From contig NZ_AP025470.1 of assembly GCF_024347375.1 (NCBI RefSeq), positions 868,001 through 932,000 on the forward strand: a stretch of 64,000 nt of DNA, given 5' to 3'. The DNA is from Vibrio coralliirubri (GTDB lineage: Bacteria; Pseudomonadota; Gammaproteobacteria; Enterobacterales; Vibrionaceae). The notes under the pieces were generated by a model. It did not search any database, had not been told where the DNA came from, and was given only the letters and a program-made list of their open reading frames with translations. Below, one piece after another: positions 27,835 to 30,697 of this stretch (position 1 is its first letter; each line of letters opens with the position of its first letter). A program made the translations under genes and the position numbers.

Positions 27835-28569
27835 ATGACGGCGGTGCTTGCTTTGTTTCGATCCATGTTAGGTAGCCTGAGGGATCTATTGCCAATCGTA
27901 GCGGTAATCGCTTTCTTCCAGCTTGCTGTCTTACAAGAGCCACTTCCTCATCTTTTATCTATTCTGACTGGCTTAGTGCTCGTCGTTTTTGGACTCACTT
28001 TCTTTATTTTTGGCCTTGAAATGGGGCTGTTTCCAATTGGCGAATCGATGGCTCAAGCATTTGCCAGAAAGGGGAGTGTGTTCTGGTTATTGATCTTCGC
28101 CTTTTGTTTGGGGTTCGGTACCACCATAGCCGAGCCAGCGTTAACCGCAGTCGCTGCCGAAGCCGCAGAAGTGGCAGCTGAGGGAGGTGTAATCCCCAAT
28201 ACGTTAGATGAAATGGAGCAGTATGCCGATGGCCTGCGCTTTACTGTGGCACTGTCAGTCGGTATCGCTATTTTACTCGGTGTGCTGAGAATCTTAAAAG
28301 GCTGGCCAATCCAGTACATGATCATCGGTGGATATATTGGAGTGGTGGTGCTCACGGCATTTGCTCCGGAAAACATCATTGGAATTGCGTATGACTCTGG
28401 CGGAGTAACGACATCGACGATCACCGTCCCGTTAGTAACTGCGTTAGGGGTGGGTTTAGCCTCGGCAATTAAAGGACGCAATCCGATGATAGATGGTTTT
28501 GGGTTGATCGCGTTTGCTTCGTTGCTGCCGATGATGTTTGTCATGGTGTACGGGATGGTGGTGACATGA
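27835..28569 (+). CDS. DUF1538 membrane protein, first copy
   Basis: A 244-aa polytopic inner-membrane protein with about six hydrophobic segments. Conserved points are FQLAVL (28-33), LFPIGE (65-70), the GTTIAEP loop (95-101), and [10 protein letters not shown] (186-195) followed by [17 protein letters not shown] (214-230). The pattern of two polar re-entrant-looking loops in a duplicated membrane protein suggests a transporter or channel, which is inference. It starts the operon after AAGGAATTGCG and overlaps the next gene by 4 bp (ATGA). The next gene is a second copy of the same family. I know of no experimentally established function. Confidence 0.85.
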
Positions 28570-29360
28570 TCAGTGCTCAACAATTTATCGACACCTTTCT
28601 CGGCACTGTGATGGATGTGATCCCGATTGCGGTCATCATCTTCGGTTTTCAGTTGGCGGTATTACGAAAGCCAGTCAATAACCTAGCCAAAGTGCTCATC
28701 GGTTTCTTCTACGTCATTCTTGGCTTATCACTCTTTTTGATGGGGTTGGAACTCGCGTTGTTTCCTTTGGGGGAGACGATGGCAATGCAACTCACCGAAC
28801 CAAGCTTTTTGACTGAGTTTAAGATCAGTTCTGGTCTTGCTTTGGCTTGGTTTGATTATTATTGGGTTTATCTTTTCGCGTTTTGCATTGGTTTCAGCAC
28901 CACGATAGCCGAGCCCTCTTTGATTGCTGTAGCGATTAAGGCAAACCAAGTTTCCGGTGGCAGTATTAGCGTCAATGGGCTGAGGATCGCCGTGGCATTG
29001 GGCGTTGCTATCGGTATCTCACTGGGTAGCTACCGTATCGTTGCGGGTGACCCGATCCATTACTACATCATTTTTGGTTATGTCGTTGTGGTCATTCAAA
29101 CCTTTTACGCCCCAAAACTCATTATTCCATTGGCCTACGACTCGGGTGGCGTAACCACATCAACGGTGACCGTCCCCTTAGTGACAGCGCTCGGGCTTGG
29201 GCTCGCTTCAACCGTACCAGGAAGAAATCCTGTCATTGATGGCTTTGGATTGATCGCCTTTGCCAGTTTATTTCCCATCATTTCAGTGATGGGCTATGCC
29301 CAAATAACACAATGGTTAAACCGTTTACACACCTCTAAGGAGAGCAAAGATGCGCTTTAA
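28566..29360 (+). CDS. DUF1538 membrane protein, second copy
   Basis: A 264-aa paralogue of the preceding gene. It repeats the same landmarks in order: FQLAVL (28-33), LFPLGE (65-70), STTIAEP (111-117), [10 protein letters not shown] (191-200) and [17 protein letters not shown] (from 219). An extra charged/aromatic segment ([18 protein letters not shown]) before the TIAEP loop has no counterpart in the first copy. The two probably make a heterodimeric membrane complex. The start overlaps the first copy by 4 bp, and its end overlaps the PII-like gene by 11 bp, so the subunits are probably made together. Confidence 0.85.
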
Positions 29361-29700
29361 ACTTATCTTAGCGTTTGTAGAAGAGAGTAAGACCGACACT
29401 GTGCTGGATGCCGCGCGTGATGCGGGCGCGACTGGAGCAACGGTGATTAACAACGCCAGAGGGCAAGGCTTAAACCAAAAAACCACCTTCTTCGGCTTAA
29501 CGTTAGAGGTGCAAAAAGATGTGTTGCTGTTTGTGGTTGAGGAACACTTAGCTCGGCATATTCTCGAAACTATTGGCGAAGTCGGTGAGTTTGACCAAGA
29601 GTCAGGACAAGGTATAGCGGTGCAGATCGATATCGAAGACGCAGTCGGGGTTGCGCATCAAGTCGAGACATTAACTAAGGTTGTGGAGGATGAGTTATGA
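29350..29700 (+). CDS. PII-like regulatory protein
   Basis: A 116-aa protein of the GlnB/PII ferredoxin-like fold. The strand-helix pattern [32 protein letters not shown] and the C-terminal SGQGIAVQIDIEDAVGV (the B-loop and beta-4 region) fit the family. The T-loop (about residues 38-56, RGQGLNQKTTFFGLTLEVQK) has no Tyr equivalent to the uridylylated Y51, so it is not a canonical GlnB/GlnK. It overlaps both flanking genes, like glnK with amtB, and presumably gates the DUF1538 pair in response to a small molecule (inference). Confidence 0.85.
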   Translation: MRFKLILAFVEESKTDTVLDAARDAGATGATVINNARGQGLNQKTTFFGLTLEVQKDVLLFVVEEHLARHILETIGEVGEFDQESGQGIAVQIDIEDAVGVAHQVETLTKVVEDEL

Positions 29701-30104
29701 GTACCAGTGAAAAAATCCGAGTAGGTGATGTCATGGCCAATACGTACGTGATTATCGATGGGCTAACCACTGTGTTAGAAGCGATAGAGACGGCGAAGAA
29801 GCATAAGGTGAAAGCAATTATTGTCGATAAGCGCCACGAAGATGACGAATACGGCATCGTATTGATGAATGACATTGCCAAGAAAGTACTGGCTAAGAAC
29901 CGATCTCCAAAGCGAACCAATGTTTATGAGATCATGACCAAGCCTGCGCTAAGCGTGTCTGCAGAGATGAACGTAAAGTATTGTGCTCGCCTGTTTGAAC
30001 GCTTTGGTATCAGTCGTGCGCCAGTAGTTCGTGATAACAAGATAGTCGGTATGGTTAGTTACAATAATATCGTGATCAACGGTATGGTGAGAGATGACGT
30101 GTAG
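29697..30104 (+). CDS. Tandem CBS-domain protein
   Basis: A 135-aa protein made of two CBS motifs. The first is about 5-65 (VGDVMANTYVIIDGLTTVLEA to YGIVLMNDIAKKVL) and the second about 78-130 (YEIMTKPALSVSAEMNVKYC to IVGMVSYNNIVING). CBS pairs bind adenosine nucleotides and regulate transporters or enzymes. It overlaps the PII-like gene by 4 bp and is the last gene of the operon. Together they suggest two soluble sensors acting on the membrane pair, with the ligand unknown. Confidence 0.88.
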   Translation: MSTSEKIRVGDVMANTYVIIDGLTTVLEAIETAKKHKVKAIIVDKRHEDDEYGIVLMNDIAKKVLAKNRSPKRTNVYEIMTKPALSVSAEMNVKYCARLFERFGISRAPVVRDNKIVGMVSYNNIVINGMVRDDV

Positions 30105-30151: not shown

Positions 30152-30697
30152 GTGAAATTATTTTTTGCTTCAGACCTACACGGTTCGCTGCCAGCAACAG
30201 AAAAGGTATTAGAACTCTACCAAGCGTCTGGTGCGCAATATTTAGTTCTATTGGGTGACATTCTGAATCATGGACCAAGAAATCCGATCCCAGAAGGATA
30301 CAATCCGCCGGCGGTTGCAGATAAGTTGAATGCGTTTTCTCAAGAGATCATTGCCGTTCGCGGTAACTGCGATAGCGAAGTGGATCAGATGCTGTTGTCT
30401 TTTCCAATGATGATGGATTACTCGTGGGTGCTATTAGAATCAGGTCAACGTATCTTCCTAACGCATGGCCATTTGTACAACACCAATAAACGCCCTGCGC
30501 TGAAGGCGGGCGATATCATTGCACACGGTCATACCCATATTCCTGTCGCCGAATACCAAGATGACATCTTTATCTTTAATCCTAGCTCGGTGACATTCCC
30601 ACGAGAGGGACACGCGGCGAGCTATGGCATCTATGAAAACAATACCTTCAAAGTCATTAGCCTTGAAGGTGATGTTCTCGTGAGTGGTCAGCTTTAA
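30152..30697 (+). CDS. yfcE: Phosphodiesterase YfcE
   Basis: A 181-aa calcineurin-like metallophosphoesterase of the YfcE type, active on model phosphodiesters in E. coli. All metal-binding blocks are visible: FASDLHGS, LGDILNHGPRNP, RGNCDSEVD, LTHGHLYN and AHGHTHIP. The GTG start at 30152 follows ATGGAGAAG at a good distance. It lies 47 bp after the CBS gene on the same strand, so it may share the operon, though no functional link is evident. The physiological substrate is not known. Confidence 0.92.
   Translation: MKLFFASDLHGSLPATEKVLELYQASGAQYLVLLGDILNHGPRNPIPEGYNPPAVADKLNAFSQEIIAVRGNCDSEVDQMLLSFPMMMDYSWVLLESGQRIFLTHGHLYNTNKRPALKAGDIIAHGHTHIPVAEYQDDIFIFNPSSVTFPREGHAASYGIYENNTFKVISLEGDVLVSGQL

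Follow-up and report, generated by a model that had tools for sequence, protein, structure and literature searches.

The four-gene operon described here probably encodes an UmpAB-type heterodimeric Na+(Li+,K+)/H+ antiporter together with its own cytoplasmic regulators, a PII-like protein and a CBS-domain protein. It is located in a stretch of 64,000 nucleotides of the Vibrio coralliirubri genome, which as a whole is referred to as the window. A preliminary description of this DNA had presented the system as undescribed and as having no assigned substrate. Neither point can be upheld, as UmpAB is a known Na+(Li+,K+)/H+ antiporter according to the available text of PMC5484666, and NCBIfam holds models for both UmpA and UmpB. 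A substrate of DUF1538 proteins had thus already been established, in one heterologous-expression study (PMC5484666, available in part). Apparently new to the literature searched is the regulatory module that accompanies the known antiporter.

Table 1. Genes of the putative antiporter operon and their positions in the window.
Feature	Position	Strand	Evidence
umpA-like gene, DUF1538, 244 aa, predicted multi-pass antiporter subunit	27835-28569	+	ORF, Pfam, NCBIfam
umpB-like gene, DUF1538, 264 aa, predicted second antiporter subunit with hydrophilic C-terminal tail	28566-29360	+	ORF, Pfam, NCBIfam
PII-like protein gene, 116 aa, candidate dedicated regulator	29350-29700	+	Pfam, AlphaFold2, Foldseek, recurrent neighbour
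Tandem CBS-domain protein gene, 135 aa, candidate adenylate sensor, optional component	29697-30104	+	Pfam, CBS-CP12 match

The four genes occupy positions 27835-30104 on the plus strand, and umpA, umpB, and the genes for the PII-like and CBS proteins overlap successively by 4, 11, and 4 bp (Table 1). The ORF coordinates confirmed to the base the overlaps given in the preliminary description. Its reading of the products as two paralogous membrane proteins, a PII-fold protein, and a tandem CBS protein was likewise correct, as Pfam assigned DUF1538, DUF1538, P-II, and two CBS domains. The operon is followed on its 3' side by a phosphodiesterase gene starting at position 30152 (PRK09453 model, 269 bits versus a cut-off of 117). 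Scanning for promoter and terminator consensus sequences yielded no signal clearly exceeding those obtained with shuffled sequences. The Vibrio assembly that includes the window consists of 2 contigs with a total of 5.74 Mb. The best named relative of the window UmpB occurs in Vibrio sp. 14G-20 (99% identity), and those of V. crassostreae, V. splendidus, and others are 94-99% identical.

Both membrane proteins matched DUF1538 (PF07556; cut-off 22.6 bits), UmpA with 236.4 bits (E 2.7e-70) and UmpB with 229.9 bits (E 2.6e-68). The two subunits are 56% identical across 222 aligned residues and are encoded by adjacent genes whose stop and start overlap. When compared with the NCBIfam equivalog models for UmpA and UmpB (NF041627 and NF041628), the product of the first gene was best matched by the UmpA model (383.7 bits, versus 193 for the UmpB model) and that of the second gene by the UmpB model (355.2 bits, versus 211.2 for the UmpA model). 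The scores of both proteins stayed below the respective equivalog cut-offs of 490 and 500, indicating that the window pair is a close relative of UmpAB rather than a certified equivalog, and that the substrate in the clade of the window could differ.

The functional assignment of the family goes back to Meng et al. 2017 (PMC5484666). In its available parts, this study describes UmpAB, the DUF1538 pair of Halomonas zhaodongensis, as a heterodimeric Na+(Li+,K+)/H+ antiporter that was obtained by selection in antiporter-deficient E. coli, with exchange reported at pH 6.5 to 9.5. UmpA and UmpB were co-immunoprecipitated, both genes together were enough to confer the antiport phenotype in E. coli, and sections of the paper are devoted to the antiport activity of everted vesicles and to K0.5 values for Na+, Li+, and K+. 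Like the window genes, those of Halomonas form a pair overlapping at stop and start (by one base in Halomonas), and NCBIfam separates the window genes into the same two subunits, the first being UmpA and the second UmpB. The homologue set of the paper includes Vibrio ezurae, the locus of which (L101) displays the four-gene order of the window. In contrast, the cloned Halomonas fragment of 4.2 kb reportedly comprised three complete ORFs and a truncated one, with umpA and umpB in the last two places, and no ORF of this fragment is described as PII or CBS in the available text, in which the terms 'PII', 'P-II', and 'CBS domain' have 0 occurrences each. Further work, likewise available in part, ties UmpAB homologues of cable bacteria to saltier habitats (PMC10030654, PMC12093952), and in a machine-learning study of 2026, DUF1538 is tabulated among the genes associated with growth pH (PMC13255231).

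A structural model was generated with AlphaFold2 on the natural fused UmpAB of locus L131 (498 aa), based on 36 alignment rows, with only 11 rows for the second half. The model (mean pLDDT 88.5, pTM 0.88) displays two broken helices per half. The Glu residue of an AEP motif (positions 101 and 355) is placed within the gap of the first broken helix of each half, and the Asp residue of a DSGG motif (positions 177 and 431) about 5 residues before the second gap, within the final turns of the helix that leads up to it. All 155 DUF1538 domains that were aligned have both the Glu and the Asp, and 153 share an Arg; loci L046-L111 were left out of this set to limit near-duplicates, and the set precedes the later loci L162-L181. 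In antiporters, carboxylates at helix breaks are the expected place of cation or proton binding, and on these grounds we propose the AEP Glu and the DSGG Asp as the site; judging from the model, they likely constitute the cation/proton site of both UmpA and UmpB. Comparison of the UmpAB model with solved transporter folds (NCX, DASS, and glutamate transporter) gave no convincing structural match. One of 17 fused proteins, encoded at positions 3816-5543 of L176, has a first half without the AEP Glu, which is perhaps a degenerate or regulatory half.

The product of the third gene matched Pfam P-II (PF00543) with 41.9 bits (cut-off 25, E 1.3e-10), and its AlphaFold2 model, calculated as a single chain (pLDDT 80.5), has the E-H-E-loop-E-H-E arrangement of the PII fold. 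Using this model, Foldseek retrieved GlnK and PII structures with a best E of 1.4e-7. Also matched was CPII of Thiomonas (5d4n to 5d4p; E 1.5e-6 to 3.3e-6), which shares the PII fold and whose entry titles name ADP/AMP, but which is just 20-21% identical to the window protein in the structural alignment. The genome of the window contains three PII-family matches, of which two score high (123.5 and 117 bits) and are read as GlnB and GlnK, and the third (41.4 bits) is the divergent PII-like protein of the operon. Key residues were compared with those of GlnB and GlnK from the same genome and among 34 members of the PII-like family, using an alignment that is uncertain in the T-loop. Thr29 was kept in 34 of 34 and Gly89 in 33 of 34 members. 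The column of Lys90 holds I, V, L, or F in 33 of 34, and that of Arg101 holds Gly in 32 and a gap in 2. We take Lys90 and Arg101 to be residues of the ATP site and Tyr51 to be the PII T-loop tyrosine for uridylylation. The window protein has no T-loop tyrosine, the aligned residue being V within the uncertain part of the alignment. As K90, R101, and the tyrosine are missing, binding of ATP/ADP by the PII-like protein is uncertain; judged by these residues, nucleotide binding appears plausible and uridylylation unlikely. In GlnK-AmtB and SbtB-SbtA, a PII-type protein regulates a membrane transporter. The window operon resembles these systems in that a PII-fold protein is encoded beside a transporter, and the Foldseek matches comprise GlnK, PII, and, at rank 48, SbtB. 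It differs from them in that the transporter belongs to another family, in that the canonical K90, R101, and T-loop tyrosine are lacking, and in that docking is here a proposal.

In the product of the fourth gene, Pfam recognized two CBS stretches (E 1.3e-17). By sequence, the nearest protein of solved structure is CBS-CP12 of cyanobacteria (PDB 5nmu, 92.8 bits), the tandem CBS core of which aligns with residues 9-127. The window protein (135 aa) differs from it in gene context and in that it ends just before the portion corresponding to CP12 in the 208-aa chain. CBS-CP12 is described as an AMP-binding hexamer in the available text of PMC9406205, and by this similarity the window CBS protein would bind adenine nucleotides, most likely AMP.

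The conservation of this arrangement was surveyed in three sets of loci, in which a gene was regarded as next to another if located on the same strand at a distance of at most 400 bp, overlaps included. The Vibrio-type set consisted of the best 80 of 178 confirmed relatives from Vibrio and near relatives. For other Pseudomonadota, 40 regions (about 1-2 per genus, with the window's own family left out) were chosen from 126 DUF1538-bearing genomes among 398 sampled. Beyond Pseudomonadota, the survey covered plasmid loci; the plasmid set comprised 7 loci from 8 plasmid records found, 5 of them clostridial and two from the same species, Paraclostridium bifermentans. The order umpA, umpB, PII, CBS occurred in 80 of 80 Vibrio-type loci, these being the best 80 of 178. 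In the other Pseudomonadota, a PII gene followed DUF1538 in 36 of 40 regions and was adjoined by a CBS gene in 25; no adjacent PII gene was found in 4 of the 40, and no CBS gene next to PII in 15, including these 4. At the plasmid loci, PII followed DUF1538 in 7/7 and CBS in 0/7. This survey, which the preliminary description had proposed, thus demonstrated that the PII gene is conserved beside DUF1538 and that the CBS gene is conserved only partly. The earlier notion of a heteromeric transporter with two sensor-type partners is supported, the PII-like partner occurring beside it across phyla.

Several loci displayed peculiarities. The umpA gene is apparently split across two frames in 4 of the 80 Vibrio-type loci (L033, L095, L097, L109). 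A DUF1538 pair with PII is carried by a Chelativorans plasmid typed as conjugative (L152) and by a Methylocystis plasmid typed as mobilizable (L153). On one strand of L127 (2496-6687), a fused UmpAB, PII, CBS, a second PII, and an unfused DUF1538 pair form two systems in one cluster.

We also approached the association from the PII side, comparing 118 PII-like matches of at least 102 bits with the listed DUF1538 matches in the 398-genome sample. Among the matches listed, 92 of the 118 PII-like genes were located 36-1582 bp downstream of DUF1538 on the same strand and 26 were not; at distances near 800 bp, only the first subunit was among the matches listed. Conversely, five of the listed DUF1538 loci, which stem from 93 genomes, were without such a downstream PII gene, and one of these (G266:C58) has a partial match of 83 bits. 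Thirteen regions of the 26 PII-like matches without a listed DUF1538 neighbour were inspected, and another is located in L123. Two of the thirteen do have DUF1538 upstream (L168, L172) and two are at contig ends (L164, L167). Six PII-like genes directly follow a gene for an SH3-domain protein (L162, L163, L165, L166, L173, L174), an assignment confirmed with Pfam for L162, L163, L173, and L174, and no DUF1538 gene was found in these six regions. In the remaining three, PII and then CBS are located beside a MaeB-type malic enzyme or a fragment thereof (L169, L170, and L171 in genomes G084, G116, and G156); Pfam recognized malic enzyme and PTA domains in L170 and a PTA domain in L171, and L169 was judged by eye. 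Genomes G084 and G116 harbour an umpAB locus without PII on another contig (L139, L147). Six weaker PII-like matches were all positioned beside DUF1538 genes (L175, L176, L177, L179, L180, L181).

Seven of the 40 regions encode UmpA and UmpB joined in one polypeptide of about 500-650 aa, which fits the heterodimer reported for UmpAB. All five clostridial plasmid loci encode a fused UmpAB followed by a PII-PII tandem. Two separate PII genes follow the fused UmpAB in L179 and L180, the second PII scoring 21.8 and 34.8 bits, respectively; in L175 a second PII is doubtful (9.4 bits), and the remaining fused loci have one PII. The adjacent divergent PII genes of L179 (5211-5977) and L180 (4709-5423) presumably recall the NifI1/NifI2 pair.

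The distance matrices of PII and UmpB were correlated across 51 pairs (Mantel r 0.789), none of 2000 permutations being as high (permutation maximum 0.273); this null covers the PII-UmpB co-variation only, and shared species history contributes to the correlation. Regions L138 and L148 each contain two systems, and the PII paralogues within a region share just 29-32% identity. Outside its own region, each of the two unfused systems has its nearest PII and its nearest UmpB in one and the same locus, and each of the two fused systems has them in different loci within the fused class.

The gene order, its recurrence, the co-variation of PII and UmpB, and the predicted folds are observations from which a mode of action can be proposed. 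UmpA and UmpB would perform cation/proton exchange, and the PII-like protein, probably as a trimer, would dock on the cytoplasmic face via its T-loop region (KTFFGL) and throttle this exchange. The CBS protein, occupied by an adenine nucleotide, most likely AMP, would set the strength of the action of the PII-like protein, and at low energy the proton-consuming extrusion of Na+ would be restrained. Docking, trimer, ligand, and direction of control are the parts of this scheme that we infer. Antiport in E. coli was conferred by umpAB without further partners, so transport as such does not depend on the PII-like and CBS proteins, and both are best read as modulators, most likely as dedicated regulators of UmpAB. 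E. coli is among the genomes with a P-II match and the host thus has PII proteins of its own, so the published UmpAB assay does not exclude a PII role.

A broader and more tentative reading appears quite possible to us: UmpAB may be gated by a dedicated PII-family protein, with a CBS AMP sensor as second input, a mode of control without precedent in the literature searched; PII-CBS may represent a portable cassette that also acts on targets like malic enzyme, and some lineages with fused UmpAB may have doubled PII to match, as a PII-PII tandem in Clostridia and as two PII genes in some Pseudomonadota. We found no report linking UmpAB to PII or CBS proteins in the open-access literature searched, which was covered partly by best-ranked matches. 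In public annotation, the neighbours are labelled 'P-II family nitrogen regulator', indicating that the adjacency of DUF1538 and PII is visible in databases and apparently uninterpreted in the literature searched.

A different ion or solute might be moved in the clade of the window, with the PII-like and CBS proteins regulating that flux and Na+/H+ exchange being a side activity upon overexpression. Such a difference would be in line with NCBIfam scores below the cut-offs for both subunits, with an occurrence in Clostridia and on plasmids of Alphaproteobacteria that is not obviously linked to salt, and with the origin of the functional assignment in one heterologous study (PMC5484666, by title the sole one on the function of the family among the papers found under the family name). 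We nevertheless consider this unlikely, as the Glu and Asp carboxylates are conserved in DUF1538 domains, as everted-vesicle antiport and K0.5 for Na+, Li+, and K+ are covered in the available parts of that study, and as UmpAB homologues of cable bacteria are tied to saltier habitats (PMC10030654, PMC12093952, both available in part).

Somewhat less probable still is that the PII-like and CBS proteins act mainly on other targets, such as carbon or redox enzymes, and are simply co-transcribed with the antiporter. The PII-CBS pairs beside malic enzyme or its fragment in G084, G116, and G156, the umpAB loci without PII elsewhere in G084 and G116, and the six PII-like genes that follow an SH3-domain gene with no UmpAB nearby would all be in line with such a role. 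However, the commonest context of the PII-like genes is downstream of DUF1538, PII and UmpB co-vary, and tandem PII accompanies the fused UmpAB in all five clostridial loci. Ordinary operon drift, by which the neighbours would be functionally unlinked, might be invoked since the link between the proteins is based on gene context and not on direct interaction. Yet the recurrence data render drift very unlikely: the order was kept in all 80 Vibrio-type loci (the best 80 of 178), PII is adjacent in distant phyla, and in Clostridia fusions occur on both sides, in UmpAB and in PII-PII.

Regulation of an UmpAB-type antiporter by its own PII-like and CBS proteins is directly testable, as an E. coli assay for UmpAB is available in which the antiporter has already been studied in the absence of both proteins. 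For bacteria that live in salty or alkaline waters, it is important that Na+/H+ exchange is controlled by the energy state. If UmpAB is indeed gated by PII-like proteins, the transport processes under PII control would come to include monovalent cation/proton antiport in a wide range of bacteria, and proteins presently annotated as nitrogen regulators would gain a different role.
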